Shown one piece after another: positions 11,271-28,500 of a stretch of 64,000 nucleotides of DNA (position 1 is its first letter; every line of letters starts with the position of its first letter). The notes under the pieces are model-generated. The model was not told where the DNA came from, ran no database searches, and saw nothing but the letters and a program-made list of their open reading frames with translations. Origin of the DNA: Emticicia sp. CRIBPO. Its GTDB lineage: Bacteria > Bacteroidota > Bacteroidia > Cytophagales > Spirosomataceae. The stretch covers positions 310,001 to 374,000 of the forward strand of contig NZ_JAAAKV010000005.1 in the NCBI RefSeq assembly GCF_009905725.1, written 5' to 3'. Made by a program: the position numbers and the translations under genes.

Positions 11271-11343
11271 GCGGGCGTAGCTCAGTTGGTAGAGCGACAG
11301 CCTTCCAAGCTGTAGGTCGCGGGTTCGAACCTCGTCGCCCGCT
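11271..11343 (+). tRNA. tRNA-Gly (TCC)
   Basis: The acceptor GCGGGCG pairs with CGCCCGC. The anticodon stem ACAGC/GCTGT encloses CTTCCAA (anticodon TCC). CCA is not encoded. It lies 15 bp after tRNA-Tyr. Confidence 0.95.
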
Positions 11344-11356
11344 CTTAATTCCCTAA

Positions 11357-11428
<72 letters not shown>

Positions 11429-11461
11429 CTGACTTAACTGGCAAGGTGGAATCAGAGCATT

Positions 11462-11494
11462 GAGCAATTATTGTATAATAATTGCTCCTTTTTT
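11462..11494 (+). terminator. Hairpin with U-tract between tRNA-Thr and tuf
   Basis: A perfect 11-bp stem (11462-11472 with 11477-11487), a GTAT loop and then CTTTTTT. It looks like an intrinsic terminator or attenuator placed 41 bp before tuf. Only a weak promoter-like TATAAATCG is seen between it and the tuf ATG, so partial read-through from the tRNA promoter is likely. Confidence 0.7.
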
Positions 11495-11535
11495 GAATTT
11501 TTAATATCGAAAAACTATAAATCGTATCTAATAAA

Positions 11536-12723
11536 ATGGCAAAAGAAAATTTTGACCGTAGCAAACCCCATGTTAATATTGGTACTATCGGTCACGTTGA
11601 CCACGGTAAAACTACATTAACAGCCGCAATTACTACAGTTCTTGCGAAAAAAGGTCTTGCAAAATTGAGAGATTTCTCTTCAATTGACAATGCACCTGAG
11701 GAAAAAGAAAGAGGTATTACTATCAATACTTCACACGTAGAGTACGAAACAGCTAATCGTCACTATGCACACGTTGACTGTCCAGGTCACGCCGATTACG
11801 TTAAGAACATGGTAACTGGTGCTGCTCAGATGGATGGTGCAATTATCGTTGTTGCTGCAACTGATGGTCCTATGCCACAAACTCGTGAGCACATCCTTCT
11901 TGCCCGTCAGGTAGGTGTTCCTCAGTTGGTAGTATTTATGAACAAAGTTGACTTAGTAGATGATCCTGAGCTTCTTGAGCTTGTTGAAATGGAGATTCGT
12001 GAGTTATTGTCATTCTACAAATTCGACGGTGATAATATCCCTGTAATTCAAGGTTCTGCACTTGGTGGCTTGAACGGCGAAGAGCAATGGGTAACTAAAA
12101 TCGAAGAGCTTATGGATGCGGTTGATAGTTTCATTCCACTTCCTGCTCGTGCTACTGATAAGCCATTCCTTATGCCGGTTGAAGACGTATTCTCGATCAC
12201 TGGTCGTGGTACTGTTGCTACTGGTCGTATCGAAACTGGTATCATCAACTCTGGTGAAGCAGTAGATATCCTTGGTATGGGTGCTGAAGGTCTTAAATCA
12301 GTTGTAACTGGTGTTGAGATGTTCCGTAAAATCCTTGACAGAGGTGAAGCTGGTGATAACGTAGGTCTTTTATTGAGAGGTATTGAGAAAGAAGCCATCC
12401 GTCGTGGTATGGTTATTTGTAAGCCGGGTTCAGTAAAACCTCACACTAAATTCAAAGCTGAAGTTTACGTATTGTCGAAAGAAGAGGGTGGTCGTCACAC
12501 TCCGTTCTTTAACAAGTACCGTCCTCAGTTTTATTTCCGTACCACTGACGTAACTGGTGAGATCTTCTTGCCTGAGAACGTTGAAATGGTAATGCCTGGT
12601 GATAACATCACTATCACTGTAAACCTTATCAATGCAATTGCGATGGACAAAGGTCTTCGTTTCGCGATTCGTGAAGGTGGTCGTACAGTAGGTGCTGGTC
12701 AGGTTACTGAAATTCTTGAATAA
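11536..12723 (+). CDS. tuf: Translation elongation factor EF-Tu
   Basis: The 395-residue GTPase has G1 GHVDHGKT (residues 19-26), the switch I region [14 protein letters not shown]3 DCPGHADY and G4 MNKVD. It brings aminoacyl-tRNA to the ribosome. Domains 2 and 3 are complete through [10 protein letters not shown]. Codon use is strongly biased (CGT, GGT, CTT), unlike the flanking accessory genes and as expected for a highly expressed gene. It is the only tuf copy in the window and follows three tRNA genes. Confidence 0.98.
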
Positions 12724-17226: not shown

Positions 17227-17607
17227 ATGGCAGATTTGAAGGCATTCGCTGAACAATTGGTTAATTTGACCGTTAAAGAAGTAAACGAATTAGCAACTAT
17301 CCTTAAGGATGAATATGGTATTGAGCCTGCAGCTGCAGGTGCGGTTGTAGTAGCAGCAACTGGTGGCGGAGACGCTGCTGAAGCTCCTGCTGAGCAAACT
17401 GCATTCGATGTGATCCTTAAATCAGGTGGTGCTAACAAACTTCAGGTAGTTAAATTGGTTAAAGATCTTACAGGTCTTGGACTTAAAGAAGCTAAAGAAC
17501 TAGTTGACGGTGCTCCAAAAGCATTGAAAGAAGGTATTGCTAAAGATGAGGCTGATGCCCTTAAGAAGCAACTTGAAGAAGCTGGTGCTGAAGTAGAGAT
17601 CAAGTAA
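17227..17607 (+). CDS. rplL: 50S ribosomal protein L7/L12
   Basis: The 126-residue protein has the N-terminal dimerisation helix pair, an Ala/Gly-rich hinge (about residues 37-55) and the C-terminal domain [39 protein letters not shown]. It recruits translation factors to the ribosome. In most bacteria rpoB follows directly, but here a strong hairpin and a foreign-looking island intervene. Confidence 0.97.
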
Positions 17608-17630
17608 TTTACTCTACCGGTATTTTGAGT

Positions 17631-17675
17631 GAGGTGGAATAAGTTGAAAAACTTACTCCACCTCATTTTGTTTTT
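17631..17675. terminator. Bidirectional terminator between rplL and the XRE gene
   Basis: GAGGTGGAATAAGTT (17631-17645) pairs with AACTTACTCCACCTC (17650-17664) with one mismatch and a GAAA loop. ATTTTGTTTTT follows on the + strand. It overlaps the stop codon of the opposing regulator, so it can serve both. It marks the upstream border of the island. Confidence 0.88.
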
Positions 17676-18033
17676 CGAGCATTTCGATTTTTTCTTCCAA
17701 AAGTTCTACCATTTTTGACTTTTCCTTGATAAGGTTATCTTTCTCATTTAGTAATAAAATCAAAAAATCTTTGTCAAGTTTATTGGAAACTGAGTTTTGA
17801 TTAAATGGATTTACATTATTTAATGGCCACCCAGTAAGCTCCCTGAGCACTTCTTCATATGTGATACTTAAGGCCCTGGCGATCTTTGGTATTTCTTCTA
17901 CTTTCAGCTTTTGTTTTCCGTTCTCAAGTCTGTTGTAAGACGAGTGTTCCATATTCAGCATTTCTGCCATATATTCTTGTGAGAAGCTTGCCTGGATTCT
18001 TAATCTTCTTAGATTATCGTTGTTAAAATTCAT
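17653..18033 (-). CDS. XRE/Cro-type HTH regulator with C-terminal coiled coil
   Basis: The N-terminal residues 7-62 form an HTH_XRE domain (LRRLRIQASFSQEYMAEMLNMEHSSYNRLENGKQKLKVEEIPKIARAL, with the SQEYMAE and SSYNRLENG helices). A Asn-rich linker and a C-terminal coiled coil follow (about residues 92-126, LLNEKDNLIKEKSKMVELLEEK). At 126 residues it is a one-component repressor or activator. It is divergent from the precursor peptide, and its own promoter overlaps a palindrome (18079-18092), which suggests autoregulation and control of the island. Confidence 0.88.
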   Translation of the reverse strand: MNFNNDNLRRLRIQASFSQEYMAEMLNMEHSSYNRLENGKQKLKVEEIPKIARALSITYEEVLRELTGWPLNNVNPFNQNSVSNKLDKDFLILLLNEKDNLIKEKSKMVELLEEKIEMLEKQNEVE

Positions 18034-18055
18034 AAAAAGGTATGGTTTTTTGAGT

Positions 18056-18086
18056 CAAATGTACACAAATATACGGAAATAGCAAA
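18056..18086 (-). promoter_or_regulatory. Promoter of the XRE regulator
   Basis: On the minus strand TTTG (18083-18086), a 19-bp spacer and TACATTTG (18056-18063) match the Bacteroidota consensus. The -33 box lies inside the palindrome at 18079-18092. Confidence 0.7.
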
Positions 18087-18092
18087 TGCTAT
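18079..18092. promoter_or_regulatory. Palindrome, candidate operator of the XRE regulator
   Basis: ATAGCA-AA-TGCTAT: 6-bp perfect arms with a 2-bp centre covering the -33 element of the regulator promoter. XRE dimers typically bind such dyads. Confidence 0.5.
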
Positions 18093-18107
18093 TTTAGCCT
18101 TGTAAAA

Positions 18108-18137
18108 TTTGCATAATGTTGTGAGTTTTTTGCATAA
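18108..18137. repeat. Direct repeat TTTGCATAA x2, 21 bp apart
   Basis: Identical 9-mers at 18108-18116 and 18129-18137 lie exactly two helical turns apart, in the regulator-precursor intergenic region. They may be protein-binding half sites. Confidence 0.45.
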
Positions 18138-18167
18138 GGTTTTTTTTGACAGAGGTGTATTATTGCA

Positions 18168-18220
18168 ATATCAAAGGGCATTTCATACAACGGTGTCTTG
18201 AATTTTAAACCCTTTGATAT
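18168..18220 (+). promoter_or_regulatory. Perfect 11-bp inverted repeat before the precursor gene
   Basis: ATATCAAAGGG (18168-18178) and CCCTTTGATAT (18210-18220) could form a stem with a 31-nt loop ending 9 nt before the precursor ATG. It may be an mRNA structure controlling translation or a protein-binding dyad. No canonical TAnnTTTG promoter was found for the precursor. Confidence 0.45.
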
Positions 18221-18229
18221 ATAAATATT

Positions 18230-18385
18230 ATGAAAAGATTGTCATTAGAAGAGCTGAAAGCTCAGAAAGGAGAAAAAAAGTTAGAAGAGTTGAAAACAAG
18301 TAACTTGGAATCAATCAAGGGAGGTGATATCGATTGGTGTCATGTTTGGGATACCATTATAAAAGGTGGGCCTTATATCTTCTAA
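18230..18385 (+). CDS. Double-glycine leader precursor peptide (RiPP/bacteriocin-like)
   Basis: A 51-codon ORF, too short for usual gene callers. The leader is charged and helical (LSLEELKAQKGEKKLEELK) and ends in LESIKGG, residues 26-32, the bacteriocin-type GG cleavage motif read by C39-peptidase exporters. The predicted core is residues 33-51, DIDWCHVWDTIIKGGPYIF: 19 residues with one Cys, one His, two Trp and three Asp. A second IKGG (44-47) repeats the cleavage-site sequence inside the core. A C39 ABC exporter with matching specificity lies 3.4 kb downstream. The peptide's activity and modification are unknown; the assignment rests on the leader and the neighbours. Confidence 0.82.
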   Translation: MKRLSLEELKAQKGEKKLEELKTSNLESIKGGDIDWCHVWDTIIKGGPYIF

Positions 18386-18449
18386 TATAATCATAGACCA
18401 ATTCTCATACCAAGCAATATCTAATTTGGCAGAAGTTTTGAAATTACAT

Positions 18450-18566
18450 CAATGTCGTTTTATAAAGCGAGTGAGGAATAATCTTCACAGGAATCAGAAA
18501 ATAAGTAAAGAGATTTTTTCTTGACTACATTTTAATTGAATGTAGCCCTTTATTAAAACGACATTG
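18450..18566. repeat. 13-bp perfect inverted repeat with nested hairpin
   Basis: CAATGTCGTTTTA (18450-18462) and TAAAACGACATTG (18554-18566) are exact complements, extended by five more pairs with one bulge. They enclose 91 bp with a second hairpin (CTACATT 18525-18531 / AATGTAG 18539-18545). The structure lies between the precursor and the processing genes, so it may attenuate the operon. It could also be a small non-autonomous mobile remnant, though no target-site duplication was verified. No other gene is seen at 18386-18613. Confidence 0.5.
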
Positions 18567-18613
18567 GTTTTAGTAAATTTAAACAGGTGTGAAATGGACT
18601 TAAACAATATTCA

Positions 18614-19345
18614 ATGATCAAGGAAATATTTCAGGATATAAGAATAATTTTACTTAAAGGTGATATAGAAGGGAATCAAGAATCTTTCAAATTAAAGCTA
18701 AAAAAGACTATGCTTATTCTAGTGGTTTCTTTTTTAGTGGCGATGTTCTTGATGCTTTTTATACATCTATCGTTGTTAAAAATGAATATTTCTATAGAGA
18801 ATCAAGTTGATAAATTTATTTCATTAAGAGGGATAGTGTTAAGTGCCTTTTTTTTTATACTAGTTGGGCCAATAATGGAAGAGTTTGTTTTTCGGGCGTC
18901 TTTGAGATATTCTTGCTCTAATATGGTTCTCATGGGGGTGGGGATTAGTTATTTTGGGGTTAGAAATCATGATTTTGCTAGTTGTTTTCCATGGATGAAT
19001 AATACTATTTTTATGATAATAGTAATCTTGTCATTCAGCTTATTTATATTTCTCTTATTGAAATGCTTTAAGAATATAAGTTCTCGTTTAAGTGTATTTT
19101 GGTTAAGAAATCCCAAATTGATTTTCTATTTGTCCGTGATTGTGTTTGGATTTATCCATTTTTTGAATTTTCGTCTGGGGGTAAAGTATTTGTTTTTGAT
19201 GCCTTTGTTGACGTTGCCGCAAACGATGTATGGAATAGTTTTGGGCTATTCGAGAATGAAATTTGGCATACAGTATTCAATATTTTTGCACGTGGCTACT
19301 AACTTATTGTTTTTCTCTCCCAGATTATTAACCTACGTGATATGA
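18614..19345 (+). CDS. CPBP-family intramembrane metalloprotease
   Basis: The 243-residue protein has about six hydrophobic segments. It carries the CPBP (Abi/Rce1-like) motifs: GPIMEEFVFR with Glu89, Glu90 and Arg94; FGFIHF with His182; and LHVATN with His226 and Asn230. Members process prenylated or peptide substrates, or give self-immunity in bacteriocin loci (PlnI and SagE type). Location directly after the precursor suggests either leader processing or producer immunity, which is an inference. The gene is strongly AT-rich (one sampled 60-base line has 18 G/C) and overlaps the next ATG by four bases (ATGA). Confidence 0.85.
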   Translation: MIKEIFQDIRIILLKGDIEGNQESFKLKLKKTMLILVVSFLVAMFLMLFIHLSLLKMNISIENQVDKFISLRGIVLSAFFFILVGPIMEEFVFRASLRYSCSNMVLMGVGISYFGVRNHDFASCFPWMNNTIFMIIVILSFSLFIFLLLKCFKNISSRLSVFWLRNPKLIFYLSVIVFGFIHFLNFRLGVKYLFLMPLLTLPQTMYGIVLGYSRMKFGIQYSIFLHVATNLLFFSPRLLTYVI

Positions 19346-19781
19346 AATTTTATGTCCTTTTTTTGTTTTGCCTTTGCTCTCAACTGCCCAACAAAATTCT
19401 TACAAGTTATGTGATAGCGTGTTTACTAATAAATGGAAACCGCACTATTATTCTTTCAATGCAAAGTACACGCTATCGTCTGAAAAACTTACCGAGGAAG
19501 TAAATAAAACGCTCACTTATCAATCTTCTCAAGTAAATGGATTTATTACCATTCGCTTTGTAGTGAATTGCAAGGGGCAATCTGGCAATTTTGAAATTTA
19601 TCAGATTGATAACAATTACCAGATTGCAAAATTTGAAGACAGATACATTGAGCAATTGTTAAATTTTGTCAAGACCTTAGAAAATTGGAAAATCGGAACT
19701 TATGAAAGCCGGAAATTTGATTATTATGCCTACTTCACTTTTAAAATTGAGCATGGAAAAGTTACTGAAATTGTGCCTTAG
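19342..19781 (+). CDS. Small secreted protein with an apparent frameshift in its signal sequence
   Basis: The main frame encodes a mature part beginning QQNSYKLCDSV and a later G-x-I-x-I-R-F-V-V-N-x-x-G segment that recalls TonB C-terminal domains. It has no proper start: only TTG at 19368, in mid-signal. An ATG at 19342 overlaps the upstream stop as ATGA but is in another frame and soon ends (53 codons). Adding one T to the T7 run at 19358-19364 joins both parts into MKFYVLFFVLPLLSTAQQ, a good signal peptide with an A-Q-Q cleavage site. So the gene is either frameshifted, translated by slippage, or affected by an assembly error. Function unknown. Confidence 0.65.
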
Positions 19782-20574
19782 TCTGACATTCTTATTGGTA
19801 ACCGTTTTGTCTTTTGCTCAAAATGATAGTACCATAAGGGCGAAAAAAGAAAGATTTATCACCCAAAAGTATTGGCATCAATTCAGTTACAATTCATTAG
19901 AATGGCAAATGTACTTAGATTCGGCATTAGTAATTGAGCCTGAAAACGCATACTTGTGGCAACAAAAATCCATGCCAAACTTTAAAAGTGGAAAGTATTA
20001 TGATGGAATGAGATTCTTAAATAAGGCTATTCAGTATGACAGTATTGCTTATCTGGGTTATCGTGGTTTTATGAAATGTATCTTTATGAAAGACTATACA
20101 AGTGCCCTTACAGATTTGAAAGCTATTTATAAAAAACGTCCCCTTGAACACATAATGGATCATAGCTATCCTTTTTGGATAGGTATTTCTTATTTGAAAC
20201 TCAATCAATTAGATTCTGCCGATTATTATTTAGGTTTATCTGTTAATAATGCTTTGTTGAAAGACAAAGACGCAGTACACTATGTAGATTGGTTTTATTG
20301 GGGATTGACAAAATATAAACAAAAAAATTATAAAGTAGCCTTAACATATTTTGAAAATGTCATTGCTCAGAACTCAAATTTCCCGGATGTCGAATATTAT
20401 AAGGCAACGATATTATTACGAAATCATCAAAAAGAGCAAGCAAAAGCATTATTACTACAAGCAAAAGCGAATATAGCAAGTGGATATCGAATGAACGAAG
20501 ACAACGAGGTTTATACTAATTATCCATACCAAATTACGGGTGTCGACATTGATGAACTTTTAGAAAAACTTTGA
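19753..20574 (+). CDS. Secreted tetratricopeptide-repeat protein
   Basis: The frame is open from 19702, but the ATG at 19753 starts a good signal peptide (MEKLLKLCLSLTFLLVTVLSFAQ), giving 273 residues. The mature part has TPR-like helix pairs: residue blocks around MYLDSALVIEPENAYLW, GMRFLNKAIQYDSIAYLGY, and KVALTYFENVIAQNSNFPD. TPRs bind other proteins. It overlaps the upstream gene by 29 bp and shares a TGATG overlap with the next gene. A role as a periplasmic partner of the peptide pathway or in immunity is inferred from position only. Confidence 0.8.
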   Translation: MEKLLKLCLSLTFLLVTVLSFAQNDSTIRAKKERFITQKYWHQFSYNSLEWQMYLDSALVIEPENAYLWQQKSMPNFKSGKYYDGMRFLNKAIQYDSIAYLGYRGFMKCIFMKDYTSALTDLKAIYKKRPLEHIMDHSYPFWIGISYLKLNQLDSADYYLGLSVNNALLKDKDAVHYVDWFYWGLTKYKQKNYKVALTYFENVIAQNSNFPDVEYYKATILLRNHQKEQAKALLLQAKANIASGYRMNEDNEVYTNYPYQITGVDIDELLEKL

Positions 20575-21713
20575 TGAAAATCCTGCAATTTTACATTAGC
20601 GATCTACTATTAGCTCAAAATCAGATTTCGTTGGCCGACACAATCCGAATGGCTATTTATCAGGAAAATGAGGTACTTTTTAATTTGTTAGACTATGAAA
20701 ATGATATACTATTTTTAGAGCCAAATTGTTTCTGCTATTTTCTTTCCGATATTGACCCTGAAAATAGAATGTCCTTAGAACAGACGCTGTTTGGTTATAT
20801 AGCGGAAGAAAAACGTCCTTCAAAAATTGCGGTTAAAGCCGATTTGTTTGGTTTGGTGAATTTGCCAAATTTGGGCTACATTCAGACAAATCCTTTTGAA
20901 GTATTATGGCTGTCATCGCAAGAAATCGAACAAAGATTACTGTCAGGTAAATTTGTTAAAAATAGCAGTATTCGTCTCTGTTTACACCCAACCGATCATC
21001 TGAGCTGTCAAAAAGGGGTAGTGTTTGATGAATCAGTTGAACAATCTTTAGCCAAACATCAGAAACAATTAGAAAAAGCAATAGATTTTTTTCAAAATCA
21101 GGTATCTGATTTTTGGCAACTTATTACTGGTGTTAATAATCAATTTGTAGTTTTTAGTAGCCCTAATCACAATTCTTTTGCAAGTATTTCCCATCATGGC
21201 ACGGCATATTTTAATGTTGAAAACAAACAAAAATCGCCTATATTCTTTATTGATGATATTGCTCACCAATGCGGACACGTCATTTTTAATGTACTTACAC
21301 TTGAAGCTACCAAATTTCTGAAAGTATCGAAAGATTACCCACTTAGGGGGTTTTCGACCAATCCACAAGAAAATAGAGGAGTTTATGGGGCTTTTCATGG
21401 TTTATTTACCTACACAACTATTTTACACTCTTTGGATAAAGTATTAAAATCGGAAACTTTATTTGATGAAAAGCAATGCCACGAGGCATTAGGAAGAATG
21501 GGTTTCTATATGCACAAATTTTATTTAGATCTCCAACTGATGAGTAATTCTGAGATTTTAACACACGATGGCTTAGCCTATCATAAACAATTTTTAGATG
21601 GATATAACACAATACTATTAGAATATGGAAAAGAATTGGCCTTATTAGATTACAGCAATCAACCTTACACTTTTCAATATGACCTGTTTAATGATTTAAA
21701 CCCTTTACAGTAG
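20574..21713 (+). CDS. HExxH-type peptide hydroxylase-like protein carrying HQxxH
   Basis: ATG at 20574 overlaps the upstream stop (TGATG), giving 379 residues. The best resemblance, from memory, is to the HEXXH-motif domain (aKG-HExxH-type peptide beta-hydroxylases in RiPP pathways). The shared layout is FIDDIAHQCGH, then about 35 residues later the block PLRGFSTNPQENRGVYGAFHGLF, which parallels the family's W/L-R-x-D-P-R-P...G-x-x-HG-x-F. Putative metal ligands are His231, His235 and His275. The usual Glu is Gln232. It is the only candidate modification enzyme near the precursor. It may instead be an inactive or peptidase-like homologue. Confidence 0.6.
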   Translation: MKILQFYISDLLLAQNQISLADTIRMAIYQENEVLFNLLDYENDILFLEPNCFCYFLSDIDPENRMSLEQTLFGYIAEEKRPSKIAVKADLFGLVNLPNLGYIQTNPFEVLWLSSQEIEQRLLSGKFVKNSSIRLCLHPTDHLSCQKGVVFDESVEQSLAKHQKQLEKAIDFFQNQVSDFWQLITGVNNQFVVFSSPNHNSFASISHHGTAYFNVENKQKSPIFFIDDIAHQCGHVIFNVLTLEATKFLKVSKDYPLRGFSTNPQENRGVYGAFHGLFTYTTILHSLDKVLKSETLFDEKQCHEALGRMGFYMHKFYLDLQLMSNSEILTHDGLAYHKQFLDGYNTILLEYGKELALLDYSNQPYTFQYDLFNDLNPLQ

Positions 21714-21747
21714 ATTTTTTGAAAGGTTAACAAAGATTAAGTAATTA

Positions 21748-23952
21748 ATGGCTAAAAAACATCCATTCTATCGTCAATATGATCAAAAAGACTGTGGGCC
21801 AACTTGCCTGCGGATGATTAGTAAATTTCATGGAAGAGCTTATGATTCTAACTATTTACGTGAAATAGCTAATCTGACGGGGGATGGTACTACACTTGGT
21901 GGTCTAGCTGATGCCGCCGAAAAGATTGGTTTTAGTTCCTTAGCTCTAAATGTTTCTTTTGACACTTTAGCAGAACAAATCCCCTTGCCATGTATTGCTC
22001 ATTGGCGTCAGAGACACTATGTTGTAGTTTATGAAGCTAACAAAGAAGAGTTGATAGTTGGTGACCCTGGCTATGGATTAATTACTTATTCAAAACAAGA
22101 TTTCATTAAGGGGTGGATACCCGAGAAAAAACCCACCAATGAATCAGAAGGGGTTTTGTTGCTGTTGGAGACCACACCTTTGTTTTACGAGCAGGAAGTA
22201 AAAACAACCGAGAAAAAGTCTTTAACAGGTTTCATTTTTCGATATTTTCGCCCTTACAAAAGGTATATTATTCAACTTTTTATTGGTCTTTTGGTGGCAA
22301 GTTTGTTGCAATTTGCTTTACCGTTTCTAACTCAACAAATAGTTGATACGGGCATAAATACACATAATCTGAGTTTCGTTTCTTTAATATTGATTGCTCA
22401 GATAGTACTTTTTATTTCCCAATCGTTCATAAGTATTATCCGGTCATGGATATTATTACACACAACAAGTCGTATTAACTTACGAATGCTTTCAGATTTT
22501 CTGATGAAGCTGATGAATTTGCCAATTAGTTTTTTTGATTCCAAAACAACCGGGGATTTATTGCAACGTATTCGTGACCACGATCGTGTACAGGCTTTTT
22601 TATCTGCCACTACATTGGACGTGCTTTTTTCATCAATAACATTGTTTGTTTTCGGGGGAATTCTATTCTATTACAATCCTTTATTGTTTTGGACGTTTTT
22701 GACAGGATCATTATTTTACATTGTCTGGGTTCTGATTTTCTTAAAAACGCGGGCAAAGATAGATTATTTATATTTCGACCAGGCTTCCGGTAATCAAAGC
22801 AGTACTATTCAATTGATCAATGGAATGCAGGAAATAAAATTGAATGGCTCAGAAAAAAGACGACGCTGGGAGTGGGAGGCCATTCAGGCACGTTTATTCA
22901 AATTGAATATCCGCAGTTTAGCCTTGTCTCAAACACAAAATGAAGGCGGGAGTTTTATTAATCAAATAAAGAATATCTTAATAAGCTTTATAGCGGCAAG
23001 ATCGGTTATTAATGGAGAAATTACTTTAGGAGCTATGCTTTCGGTACAATATATCATTGGTCAGATGAATGCTCCGATCAATAATTTTTTGACATTTATC
23101 CGGAGTTATCAGGATGCCAAGTTAAGTATTGAAAGATTGGCAGAGATTCATAATAAAACCGACGAAGAAACAAAAGAAGATTTATTGATAAATGAGTTAC
23201 CTGCTAATAAAACGATACAGATGCAAAATCTGGACTTTCGTTATGGAAGTAGTGCATCAGCATTAGTTTTGAAAAACATTAATCTGACAATTCCGGAAGG
23301 AAAAGTAACCGCAATTGTAGGGGCTAGTGGTAGCGGAAAAACAACGCTTTTGAAATTACTTCTCAAGTTCTATGAACCATCTAACGGCCAGATTTATTTA
23401 GGCAATACCAATCTGAAAAATTTGAGTTACAATTTCTGGCGTAGCCAATGCGGAGTTGTGATGCAGGATGGTTATATTTTTGCAGACTCTATTGCCCGTA
23501 ATGTCAGTGAATCAGACATAAATGGCTCAATAAATAAGAGAAAACTTCAAAATGCTATCCATACTGCAAACATAAGTGAATTTGTTGAACAATTACCCAG
23601 CGGTTTTAACACCCGGATTGGCTCAAGCGGAATGGGAATTAGTGGTGGGCAAAAGCAAAGGATTTTAATAGCCCGTGCTGTTTACAAAAATCCTGAATTT
23701 TTATTCTTCGATGAAGCCACTTCTGCATTAGATGCTAATAATGAAGCTCAGATAATGCGGAATTTGGATGAGTTTTTCAGAGGTAGAACTGTAGTCGTAG
23801 TTGCACATCGTTTAAGTACAGTTAAGAATGCAGATCAGATTATTGTACTTAATAGGGGTGAAATAGTTGAATCAGGGACTCATGATGATTTAGTGTACAA
23901 GCAGGGCTATTACTATTCATTGGTAAAGAATCAATTAGAATTGGGAAGTTAA
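21748..23952 (+). CDS. C39-peptidase ABC transporter (PCAT), peptide maturation and export
   Basis: The 734-residue protein begins with a C39 peptidase domain: catalytic Cys16 in QKDCGPTCL, His90 in RQRHYVVV and Asp106 in VGDPGYG. A six-helix ABC exporter domain follows (about 165-450) and then the ATPase: Walker A GASGSGKT (525-532), signature ISGGQKQR (from 631) and Walker B LFFDEATS (Asp655, Glu656). Such transporters cut after GG and export the core peptide, which fits the precursor at 18230. The gene starts 35 bp after the hydroxylase-like gene and overlaps the HlyD gene by one base (TAATG). Confidence 0.95.
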   Translation: MAKKHPFYRQYDQKDCGPTCLRMISKFHGRAYDSNYLREIANLTGDGTTLGGLADAAEKIGFSSLALNVSFDTLAEQIPLPCIAHWRQRHYVVVYEANKEELIVGDPGYGLITYSKQDFIKGWIPEKKPTNESEGVLLLLETTPLFYEQEVKTTEKKSLTGFIFRYFRPYKRYIIQLFIGLLVASLLQFALPFLTQQIVDTGINTHNLSFVSLILIAQIVLFISQSFISIIRSWILLHTTSRINLRMLSDFLMKLMNLPISFFDSKTTGDLLQRIRDHDRVQAFLSATTLDVLFSSITLFVFGGILFYYNPLLFWTFLTGSLFYIVWVLIFLKTRAKIDYLYFDQASGNQSSTIQLINGMQEIKLNGSEKRRRWEWEAIQARLFKLNIRSLALSQTQNEGGSFINQIKNILISFIAARSVINGEITLGAMLSVQYIIGQMNAPINNFLTFIRSYQDAKLSIERLAEIHNKTDEETKEDLLINELPANKTIQMQNLDFRYGSSASALVLKNINLTIPEGKVTAIVGASGSGKTTLLKLLLKFYEPSNGQIYLGNTNLKNLSYNFWRSQCGVVMQDGYIFADSIARNVSESDINGSINKRKLQNAIHTANISEFVEQLPSGFNTRIGSSGMGISGGQKQRILIARAVYKNPEFLFFDEATSALDANNEAQIMRNLDEFFRGRTVVVVAHRLSTVKNADQIIVLNRGEIVESGTHDDLVYKQGYYYSLVKNQLELGS

Positions 23953-25250
23953 TGGAAAATATAGACATTGAAGAAGCTGAAATCAGAAGCGAAGCGGTCA
24001 GAGATTTTTTGGAGACCATTCCAAACTGGCTGATTCGATGGGGGATCCTTAGCACATCTATTGTATTGTTAGTTGTATTTTCTGCAGGCTGGTGGATCCA
24101 TTACCCTACAATTGTGGTTGCGGATTTTACATTGAGCTCTACAAGCCTCCCCAAGCCGGTAATCGCGAAAGTCGATGGTAGATTGGAAAAGATATTTGTA
24201 AAAGAAAACCAAAAGGTAAAAACAGGCGAAATGCTTGGCTATTTAGAAAGTACTGCAAATCACAATGAAATGTTAAAGCTTGAAAGCGAATTGAAAAATT
24301 TTGATACCAACTTGTTGAATGATAATATAGCGGAGGTGCATTTAGTTACTTTGGGTAAGTATTATCACTTAGGGGAGCTTCAAGATCAGTACCAGGATCT
24401 CCAGCAAAATTATGTTCAGATGAGTTTCCTGTTTAAGGATAAATACTTTCAAAAAAGGAAAGATTTTATTGAGAATGAAATAAATGAAATTCTTACTATT
24501 AACCAGCATTTGCAAGACCAGTTAAAGTTATATGACAGAGATGTAGAATTGTCAGATAAAGAATATAAAATAAACCAAAAACTGTTAAACGAAAAGGTTA
24601 TCGCCAAACTGGACTTATACAGAGAAGAGAGTAAACTTTTGGCTAAAAAGATACCTATCAAAAATATTCAAAATACGATTTTAAATAACAGGGCATTGGT
24701 TAATAGCAAACAACGGGAGATCTTGGAGCTGGAAAATACTACCCTGTTACAAAAGGAGTCATTCAAACAATCATTAAATATTCTGAAAAGTAATATTGAA
24801 CAATGGAAAAGCAGATATGTTTTATTTTCTCCCATTGATGGTCATGTTAATTTGGCTGGTTCGCTTCAGGAAAAGCAATATGTTAAATCAGGTTCTGAAA
24901 TTCTGTTTATATCAACACAGAATAAGACTTATTTGGGAGAAATCAGGATTCCACAGGCCAATTTTGGTAAAGTTAAAAAAGGACAAAAAGTTTTAATAAA
25001 GCTTCAGGGGTATCCTTTCGAAGAGTTTGGATCAATACGAGGACAGATAGTCACAATAGCAGAACTATCGTCTCAGGACAACCAGTTCTTTTGGGCTACT
25101 GTGAGTTTGCCAAACGGTTTGCTAACAGACGCAAACAAAAAAGTGGAGTATAAAACCGGTATGAAAGCTTCAGCAGAAATCGTTACGGAAGATATGAAAT
25201 TAATCGAGCGATTACTTTTTGCTTTTAAACGCTCATTACAAACCAGATAA
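23952..25250 (+). CDS. HlyD-family membrane-fusion/adaptor protein
   Basis: At 432 residues it has one N-terminal transmembrane helix (about residues 33-55), a biotinyl-lipoyl-like half (VIAKVDGRLEKIFVKENQKVKTGEMLGYLES), a long alpha-helical hairpin (about 110-275) and a second lipoyl half with a barrel domain (RYVLFSPIDGHVNLAGSL, then GQKVLIKLQGYPFEEFGSIRG). It bridges the ABC exporter to an outer-membrane channel such as TolC, which is not encoded here. It is translationally coupled to the C39 exporter and is the last gene of the island. Confidence 0.93.
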   Translation: MENIDIEEAEIRSEAVRDFLETIPNWLIRWGILSTSIVLLVVFSAGWWIHYPTIVVADFTLSSTSLPKPVIAKVDGRLEKIFVKENQKVKTGEMLGYLESTANHNEMLKLESELKNFDTNLLNDNIAEVHLVTLGKYYHLGELQDQYQDLQQNYVQMSFLFKDKYFQKRKDFIENEINEILTINQHLQDQLKLYDRDVELSDKEYKINQKLLNEKVIAKLDLYREESKLLAKKIPIKNIQNTILNNRALVNSKQREILELENTTLLQKESFKQSLNILKSNIEQWKSRYVLFSPIDGHVNLAGSLQEKQYVKSGSEILFISTQNKTYLGEIRIPQANFGKVKKGQKVLIKLQGYPFEEFGSIRGQIVTIAELSSQDNQFFWATVSLPNGLLTDANKKVEYKTGMKASAEIVTEDMKLIERLLFAFKRSLQTR

Positions 25251-25272
25251 CAACATATTTTTTTAGAAAAAC

Positions 25273-25303
25273 TTGTCTTCTTAAGAAGAAACACATACCT
25301 TTG
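25273..25303 (+). promoter_or_regulatory. rpoBC promoter with a palindrome in its spacer
   Basis: TTG at 25273-25275, a 20-bp spacer and TACCTTTG at 25296-25303 fit the Bacteroidota consensus. The spacer holds a 14-bp perfect palindrome, TCTTCTTAAGAAGA (25276-25289), in a position where a bound protein would block polymerase. It starts 22 bp after the island's last stop. Confidence 0.7.
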
Positions 25304-25360
25304 CAAGCTTTTTGATGATTGTTTCACCGTGCTTTGGTTCTTTCATCAAGACAGATAACA

Positions 25361-25419
25361 TTTTACCCGATACACTTCTGTTTTCGTAGGGCAGATGAAA
25401 AGGGGTAAATTCGTTTTTT
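25361..25419 (+). promoter_or_regulatory. Terminator-like hairpin in the rpoB leader
   Basis: TTTACCC (25362-25368) pairs with GGGTAAA (25403-25409), an inner CTTCTG/CAGATG pairing is possible, and TTCGTTTTTTC follows at once. In a leader of about 215 nt this could act as an attenuator. The rest of 25420-25524 shows no other recognisable element. Confidence 0.4.
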
Positions 25420-25524
25420 CTTCACTGCGATTTTTGATAGCTAAAATTTACAGGATCGGGCATCCACGCCTTATTTTAGCATAGTCAAGTAATTTAAATT
25501 TTTAACATTTAAACATTTAAAACC

Positions 25525-28500
25525 TTGAATTTGACAGAAACCGGAAGGAAGACTTTTGCAAGTGTTCAACCCGTACTGGAATATCCTGACTTTTTGGATA
25601 TTCAGCTGCAATCATTTACCGAATTTTTCCAGATTGATACCCCAGCCGAAAGCCGTCGTGCCGAAGGTCTGTATCAGGTATTCATGGATAACTTTCCGAT
25701 TGCTGACTCACGGGAAAATTACGTACTGGAGTTCGTCGATTATACCATCGACCAACCAAAATACTCTGTGGATGAATGTATCGACAGAGGCTTAACATAT
25801 TCTGTGCCGCTGAAAGCCAAACTTCGTTTGCTTTGTAATGACTCAGATAATGAAGATTTCGAAACCATCGAGCAGGAGGTATTCTTAGGTAATATCCCTT
25901 ACATGACCGGAAGAGGTTCTTTCGTCATCAATGGTGCGGAAAGGGTTATCGTTTCTCAACTTCACAGATCGCCGGGTGTATTCTTCTCTATGAGCAAGCA
26001 TACCAACGGTACCAAACTTTACTCTGCCCGTGTTATCCCGATGAAGGGTTCATGGATCGAGTTCTCTACTGACGTAAACAACGTCATGTATGCCTATATC
26101 GACCGTAAAAAGAAGTTTCCTGTAACCACCCTGCTTCGTTCAATCGGATTTGGTTCGGATAAGGAAATTCTTGATTTATTTGGTCTTTCTGAAGAGGTGA
26201 AAGCCACTAAAGAAAATCTTAAAAACGTTGTTGGCCGTAAACTGGCTGCAAGGGTTCTTAAAACATGGACTGAAGACTTCGTGGATGAAGACACCGGTGA
26301 GGTGGTTTCAATCGACAGGAATGAAGTTATCCTTGAAAGGGACTCTATCATCTCTGAAAGTGATGTGGCTACGATCCTTGATACGGAGCAGAAATCGGTT
26401 ATCCTTCATAAAGAAGATGCCAACGTTGCCGAGTTCAACATCATTTACAATACACTACAGAAAGATAGCTCGAACTCTGAAAAAGAGGCTGTTGAGCAAA
26501 TATACCGTCAGCTGAGAAACACTGAAGCACCTGATGAGGCTACTGCCCGTGAGATTATTCAGGGTCTGTTCTTCTCTGACAAGAGATATGACCTGGGTGA
26601 AGTAGGCCGTTACAGGGTTAACACCAAACTTAACCTGACTACAGATCTTGAAACAAGGGTATTAACTACTGAAGATATTATCTCTATCGTGAAATATCTG
26701 ATCGGTTTGATCAACTCTAAAGCCGTTGTCGATGATATCGATCACCTTTCCAATCGTCGTGTTCGTACGGTAGGAGAGCAGTTGTCAGGACAATTCGGCG
26801 TTGGTCTTGCCCGTATGGCCCGTACCATCAAAGAAAGGATGAACGTAAGGGATAATGAAGACTTCAAGCCTGTTGACCTGATCAACGCGAGAACGCTTTC
26901 TTCTGTTATCAACTCGTTCTTCGGTACCAACCAGCTTTCTCAGTTTATGGACCAGACCAACCCTCTTGCTGAAATTACGCACAAACGTCGTATGTCAGCA
27001 CTTGGACCAGGAGGTCTTTCAAGAGAAAGAGCAGGTTTCGAGGTTCGTGACGTTCACTATACTCACTATGGCCGTCTTTGTACCATTGAAACTCCGGAAG
27101 GACCAAACATCGGTCTGATTTCCTCACTTTGTACTTTCGCTAAGGTCAATTCAATGGGATTCATTGAAACGCCTTATATGAAAATCGAAGAAGGTAAAAT
27201 CACCGGAACCATCGAATACCTGACAGCTGAAGAAGAAGACGGTAAAAACATCGCCATGGCAACAGCCGACGTGGATGAAGCCGGTAACTTTACCGTAGGT
27301 AGCCTGAAATGTAGATATGAAGGGGATTTCCCATTGAAAAACCCTAATGATATTGAGTTCATGGATATTGCTCCTAACCAGATCGTATCTGTGGCCGCTT
27401 CGCTGATTCCTTTCCTTGAGCATGATGATGCCAACCGTGCCCTGATGGGTTCGAACATGCAACGTCAGGCTGTTCCTTTGTTCAGACCTGAGGCTCCTAT
27501 CGTAGGAACAGGTTTGGAAGGAAGACTGGCGAGAGATTCACGTACGCTGATTGTAGCGGAAGGCGAAGGATTTATTGAATACGTGGATGCTGAGAAAATT
27601 GTGGTAAACTATGACTGGAACAGCGATCAGACACTTGTAAACTTTGACACCAATGTTAAAACTTACAACCTGATTAAATTCCGCAGAACCAACCAGGATA
27701 CCTGTATCAACCTTCACCCGATTGTTCTTAAAGGACAAAAAGTGAAAAAAGGTCAGATCCTGGTAGAAGGATACGCAACTCAGGGTGGTGAATTAGCCCT
27801 TGGACGTAACCTTCAGGTAGCCTTCATGCCTTGGCAGGGATATAACTTTGAGGATGCGATCGTGATTTCGGAGAGAGTGGTTCGTGAGGATATCTTTACC
27901 TCTATCCACATCGAAGAGTTCGACCTTGAAGTAAGAGATACCAAAAGAGGAGAAGAAGAGCTTACTGCTGAAATCCCGAACGTTTCGGAAGAAACCGTTA
28001 AAAATCTTGATGAAAACGGTATCGTAAGAGTAGGTACCCACATCAAAGAAGGAGATATCCTGATCGGTAAGATCACTCCGAAAGGAGAGTCTGATCCGAC
28101 TCCGGAGGAAAAACTACTTCGTGCCATCTTTGGTGACAAAGCCGGTGATGTGAAAGATGCTTCGAAAAAGGCTCCGCCATCGTTAAGAGGTGTGGTTATC
28201 GATACCAAACTTTTCTCAAGACCATCTAAAGAAGAAAGAGTTAAACATAAAGAAGAATTGAAAGTGTTGATGAAACAACACAGCAAATCTTTGATGGCTC
28301 TTAAATCTGTGATGATTGATAAAATGACCGAATTGCTTGACGGTCAAACCGGTAACGGTGTTAAGCACAAATTCGGAGAAGAACTGATTTCTAAAGGAAT
28401 GAAGTTCAATAAATCAAACATTTCTAATAACCTGTTCCCTGAAAAGAACCCGTTTGTGGATGAAAGCTCATACAATGTGCCGGAAGAAGCAAACCTTTTG

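Follow-up and report, generated by a model that had tools for sequence, protein, structure and literature searches.

The genome of Emticicia sp. CRIBPO (Spirosomataceae) carries an island of eight open reading frames (ORFs) between rplL and rpoB, which are usually neighbouring genes. In the 64,000-nucleotide stretch that we analysed (the window; positions 310,001 to 374,000 of contig NZ_JAAAKV010000005.1), rplL ends at 17607 and rpoB starts at 25525. The gap is filled, in this order, by an XRE-family regulator, a precursor peptide, a CPBP/Rce1-like protein, a small secreted protein, a TPR protein, a 380-aa protein, a C39-peptidase ATP-binding cassette (ABC) exporter and an HlyD-type adaptor. 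An earlier sequence-only reading of this DNA had placed about 7.9 kb with these eight genes at the junction, and both its boundaries and its gene order are borne out by the sequence and the ORF list. In Pfam and NCBIfam profile scans, the regulator, the CPBP/Rce1 and TPR proteins, the exporter and the adaptor score over Pfam cut-offs, and the precursor, the small secreted ORF and the 380-aa protein match no family over cut-off. Among the eight proteins the scans list no match to a radical SAM, MNIO or ATP-grasp enzyme, nor to an integrase or transposase (the borders were not searched in depth for repeats). The island (17608-25524) has a G+C content of 33.8%, against 42.8% in the rest of the window and 41.5-44.6% in 81 overlapping stretches of equal length elsewhere in it. 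The low G+C proposed earlier thus holds, although not at 30-32% throughout, since 1-kb steps run from about 30 to 36%. The gene overlaps TGATG (20572-20576), TAATG (23950-23954) and 29 bp (19753-19781) are likewise present as described, but the ATGA at 19342 does not start the conserved frame of the small secreted protein.

The center of the cassette is a pair of genes on the plus strand. The precursor gene (18230..18385) encodes a 51-aa peptide with the leader MKRLSLEELKA...IKGG and a core that opens DIDWCH, so that a Cys-His pair occupies positions +5/+6 after the double glycine (GG-X4-CH). The 380-aa protein (20574..21713) has the fold of the HExxH domain of ChlH, an α-ketoglutarate (αKG)-dependent peptide hydroxylase, and in fold comparisons two αKG-HExxH structures score far above any peptidase. 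Its motif, described earlier as HExxH-like, is in fact HQCGH, the Glu being replaced by Gln, and HQxxH is found in all 31 aligned members of the family. Residues H231, H235, R268, H275 and R308 are invariant in the same 31 proteins; R268 and H275 align with the canonical Arg and His and reproduce the downstream Arg-x6-His of ChlH; in SjiH, Gln stands in for this His. No Pfam or NCBIfam model recognises the HQxxH branch in the window protein, and 11 of the 31 members match TIGR04267 at E<=0.1 (best 1.8e-6).

Precursor and enzyme occur together. A leader-GG-CH precursor lies near the enzyme in 19 of 19 enzyme-bearing genomes of the family, and the window precursor, used as a query, finds matches in 16 of 222 family genomes, all of them within these 19. 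A leader-plus-GG pattern that did not require CH was applied to the window, to the neighbourhoods of the 18 other enzyme genomes and to six comparison loci; it returned 20 peptides, all beside an enzyme or enzyme piece and all GG-X4-CH, and none in the comparison loci. More widely, 26 of 33 named enzyme loci contain a GG-X3-6-CH ORF, each having one on the enzyme strand, compared with 1, 1, 0, 4 and 0 loci in five dinucleotide shuffles. The invariant columns of the 35-row precursor alignment are G31, G32, C37 and H38, most rows having been chosen by the GG..CH pattern. The precursor family therefore has a conserved leader and processing site, with a tailoring-type enzyme conserved beside it, as in ribosomally synthesised and post-translationally modified peptide (RiPP) loci. 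This co-occurrence, together with the enzyme fold, supports the view of the sequence-only reading that the island is a RiPP-type cassette with an unusual modifying enzyme.

The exporter (21748..23952, plus strand) combines C39 peptidase, ABC membrane and ATPase domains, all over cut-off (PF03412, 114.1 bits; PF00664, 110.2; PF00005, 108.3), which identifies it as a peptidase-containing ABC transporter (PCAT). It overlaps the HlyD-type periplasmic adaptor (23952..25250, plus strand; PF16576, 33.6 bits, cut-off 30), which also aligns with TIGR01843 at 120.2 bits (E 1.1e-34), under that model's cut-off of 208.65. The earlier proposal hinged on precursor and transporter being conserved together, and they are: the 18 closest C39 domains in the 222 genomes all come from cassette loci, after which the E-value steps from 1.5e-53 to 8.6e-47. 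As controls we took 20 of the 22 C39 transporters that rank next in similarity within the family, each with 12.4 kb of sequence (two shortened by contig ends); the HQxxH enzyme was found around none of them, and a GG-X3-6-CH ORF around one. A paralogous exporter in the same genome, 54% identical, is accompanied by a GG peptide without CH (VVGGKMFYCQC), and the enzyme was not found in the stretch around it.

The make-up of the cassette varies among loci. BLAST clustering of 38 loci (the 33 named, four further family loci and the window) places the exporter in 31, a count in which one locus has only a weaker 238-aa piece, and HlyD in 29. A secreted protein cluster of metallo-β-lactamase (MBL) fold occurs in 17 loci (the two members scanned match PF00753), an amidohydrolase-type cluster in five and an unnamed secreted protein of 395 aa in eight; the window has the CPBP, small secreted and TPR proteins and none of these three types. 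In the Runella loci the exporter is 76-77% identical to that of the window but the enzyme only 27%, a mismatch which indicates that parts have been exchanged. Across 25 loci, leader sequences vary with the exporter (partial r 0.60, p 0.0002) and show no clear tracking of the enzyme (partial r 0.08, p 0.22).

We considered how the same junction is arranged in relatives. In 121 sampled genomes of the family, rplL was located in 118, the rpoB start in 116 and both in 113. The two lie on one contig and strand in 87, with gaps under 1 kb in 79 (median 308 bp), about 1.1 kb in three and 5.0-7.9 kb in three, and far apart in two; the remaining 26 have them on different contigs or strands, in part because the assemblies are fragmented. 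All three long gaps belong to the genus of the window (three of its ten genomes), each with different genes. Among the nine other members, the gap is below 1 kb in seven and holds other genes in two. By eye rather than by profile, one of these inserts (L057, 1504-9318) encodes a group II intron-type reverse transcriptase and histidine-kinase-like, LytTR-like and PKD/PQQ-repeat-like proteins, and the other (L058, 1512-6539) RES-like and PKD/PQQ-like proteins among others. The junction thus tolerates inserts in this genus. The enzyme has no match at E<=0.001 in any of the nine genomes and the cassette is absent from the site in all nine, which supports the foreign origin proposed earlier; a stable block shared by close relatives is not what is seen.

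We suggest, at a probability of roughly 0.65, that the island is a horizontally acquired RiPP-type cassette set between the rplL and rpoB transcription units, in which the HQxxH enzyme oxidises the precursor at or beside Cys-His before export by the C39 transporter. Judging from the fold, the invariant HxxxH and Arg/His residues and the adjoining precursor, the enzyme most likely serves to oxidise that precursor in a metal-dependent reaction. As a branch of the αKG/Fe(II) HExxH peptide-hydroxylase fold, the enzyme would bind its metal through H231, H235 and perhaps H275, and might carry out a His β-hydroxylation or an oxidative change of the Cys-His pair. This pair is a natural candidate for the modification site, because it persists in loci that lack the GG site and this exporter. 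Given the established function of their families, the C39 domain would cut after the double glycine, and exporter and HlyD adaptor, with a TolC-type protein from elsewhere in the genome, would secrete the product.

The nearest known systems are the αKG-HExxH-type peptide β-hydroxylases (TIGR04267/IPR026337; ChlH, SjiH, BpmH, PflC/PosC and PesO). Characterised members hydroxylate His, Asp, Phe, Gln or Pro (PMC13060819), and two of them, PflC and PosC, additionally cleave the backbone oxidatively (PMC12636437). The family of the window differs in having HQxxH instead of HExxH, in scoring under the NCBIfam cut-off in the window protein, and in pairing a stand-alone enzyme with a C39 exporter and a GG-X4-CH core, in a cassette with no radical SAM or MNIO match. 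The exporter resembles the PCATs of bacteriocin and graspetide loci in its order of C39, ABC membrane and ATPase domains and its adjoining HlyD, but its 18 closest C39 domains are those of the cassettes described here, which in the window come with no ATP-grasp match. The Bacteroidetes GG-leader precursors TIGR04149 and TIGR04139 stand next to SPASM maturases and in ATP-grasp loci (PMC8939145). The window precursor is like them in its short GG-ended leader and its phylum; in contrast, it reaches only 10.8 bits against TIGR04149 (cut-off 25), carries the CH motif and has a partner that is neither a radical SAM nor an ATP-grasp enzyme.

The cassette appears to be a small, imported one of RiPP type, belonging to a family that spans several phyla, in Bacteroidota and gammaproteobacteria and, with another precursor form, in planctomycetes. 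It ties the HQxxH branch to a precursor whose candidate target is a simple pair of nearly invariant residues, a combination of which we found no description in the papers searched, and it is plausible to claim a new peptide class. More tentatively, and with the odds rather against it, these could form a cross-phylum RiPP class in which the target of the HQxxH oxygenases is a near-invariant Cys-His dyad, found as a rule 3-6 residues past GG and in planctomycetes within a protein lacking GG. Its modification might give either a cross-link between Cys and His or an oxidised pair that binds metal, and the secreted hydrolases would be exchangeable accessories. A two-residue target and two small genes make the reaction directly testable by co-expression.

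Several observations weigh against the cassette model proposed above. None of the 31 aligned members keeps the motif Glu, which is Gln throughout, so that the chemistry of the characterised enzymes does not necessarily carry over, and the window enzyme scores 11.7 bits against TIGR04267 (E 0.18), short of the cut-off of 40. Seven of the 33 named loci lack a GG-X3-6-CH ORF: three (L076, L081, L094) lie on contigs that begin inside the enzyme, two from planctomycetes (L075, L083) have CH without a GG site, in an ORF with a signal-like N-terminus (by eye) directly before the enzyme, and in two (L084, L087) no CH peptide was found. In another locus (L091) the CH peptide is 5 kb downstream. Conversely, one control (L126) has a GG-TAD-CH peptide (11337-11558, minus strand) beside another C39 exporter, and the 12 kb searched there showed no HQxxH enzyme. 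Residues flanking CH follow the enzyme with a partial r of 0.10 (p 0.11) and the exporter weakly (0.16, p 0.03) across the 25 loci; they track neither partner strongly, and co-variation of core and enzyme is thus not shown. Finally, the island contains no TolC gene; a TolC-like ORF was seen by eye in the paralogous exporter cluster (L059, 4935-6227).

What the product does is a separate question from what the enzyme does. There is an appreciable, somewhat less than even, chance that it is a metal-binding or signalling peptide rather than a bacteriocin. A Cys next to a His could bind metal, hydrolase-like secreted proteins (the MBL-fold and amidohydrolase clusters) accompany the cassette in relatives and no dedicated immunity gene is recognisable; on the other hand, no metal-responsive gene was recognised beside it, and the CPBP and small secreted proteins could act as immunity. 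In another reading, which we regard as unlikely, the HQxxH protein is no oxygenase but has lost its catalysis or been re-purposed and binds the precursor, as a chaperone, leader-binding protein or sensor would; the exported peptide would then be otherwise unmodified, its Cys-His pair serving to bind metal or form a disulfide. The uniform Gln and the failure of the CH flanks to track the enzyme would fit such a protein, but a dead one need not keep the five invariant His and Arg residues. It is very improbable that the protein is a zincin-type peptidase acting in maturation or degradation of the peptide, since the general-base Glu of zincins is missing throughout, the peptidase structures are far outscored and the C39 domain already provides cleavage. 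There is hardly any chance that the cassette is an ordinary resident of the rplL-rpoB region: long inserts are also found at this site in two further members of the genus, but with different genes, and the short junctions of the other seven, the unmatched enzyme in all nine and the deviant G+C contradict it.

The CPBP/Rce1-like intramembrane protein (18614..19345, plus strand; PF02517, 25.3 bits, cut-off 22.4), which we class as accessory, has homologues in 10 of the 38 loci, the window counted. The small secreted protein, possibly TonB-CTD-like (19368..19781, plus strand), is found in 10 loci. It had been taken for an intact gene; however, the frame opened by ATG 19342 is 53 codons long, and a different frame, with TTG 19368 as its first listed start, encodes the conserved domain. 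A relative in an Emticicia metagenome-assembled genome (MAG; L063) has an unbroken frame, and the window gene appears to be broken near its 5' end. The TPR protein (19753..20574, plus strand; TPR_2, 34.6 bits), with a signal-like N-terminus, is paired with this ORF and has homologues in 11 loci.

The divergent XRE-family (HTH_3) regulator (17653..18033, minus strand; PF01381, 43.7 bits, cut-off 23) may control the cassette through an inverted repeat directly before the precursor start (18158..18230; exact inner arms ATATCAAAGGG and CCCTTTGATAT; hairpin z -2.71), which was located in a repeat search and is a candidate operator. By eye, similar AAAG/CTTTG arm pairs, about 30-35 nt apart, precede the precursor gene in five further loci (L044, L073, L078, L086, L095), giving 6 of 22 upstream regions with the window counted.

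Other loci show variant arrangements. The Emticicia MAG locus L063 (on a contig shared with L038) has a tandem pair of precursor-enzyme units, between which lies a 75-aa ORF that, by eye, looks like the beginning of the MBL-type secreted protein. In planctomycete and zetaproteobacterial loci a longer precursor-like protein of another type precedes the enzyme (L075, 8583-8909; L083, 8507-8917; L085, 8593-8877); these share an (I/V)W(I)xELVPVF segment after CH, and GG is missing in two of the three. The enzyme frame is interrupted in L067, L070 and L078 (two Dyadobacter genomes and one Cytophagales MAG), where exporter and HlyD are present, partly broken.

Six family genomes (G101, G103, G104, G105, G118 and G152) have rplL and rpoB widely separated, or on the two different strands, on a single contig, which indicates that the operon is split in some lineages. 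Upstream of rpoB in the window lies a short element, GATGNAAAGGGG...TCACTGCGATT (25394-25432, within about 25371-25435), with no Rfam match or folding signal; it is absent from 111 other family genomes and present once per genome in all ten genus members, the carriers of other inserts included. At the opposite end, an inverted repeat with T-rich 3' sequence (17630..17665, plus strand; 16-nt arms with 94% complementarity around a 4-nt loop) reaches into the end of the XRE gene and is a probable rplL terminator, and a hairpin with a T-run was also seen by eye 3' of rplL in L057, L058, L034 and L035.
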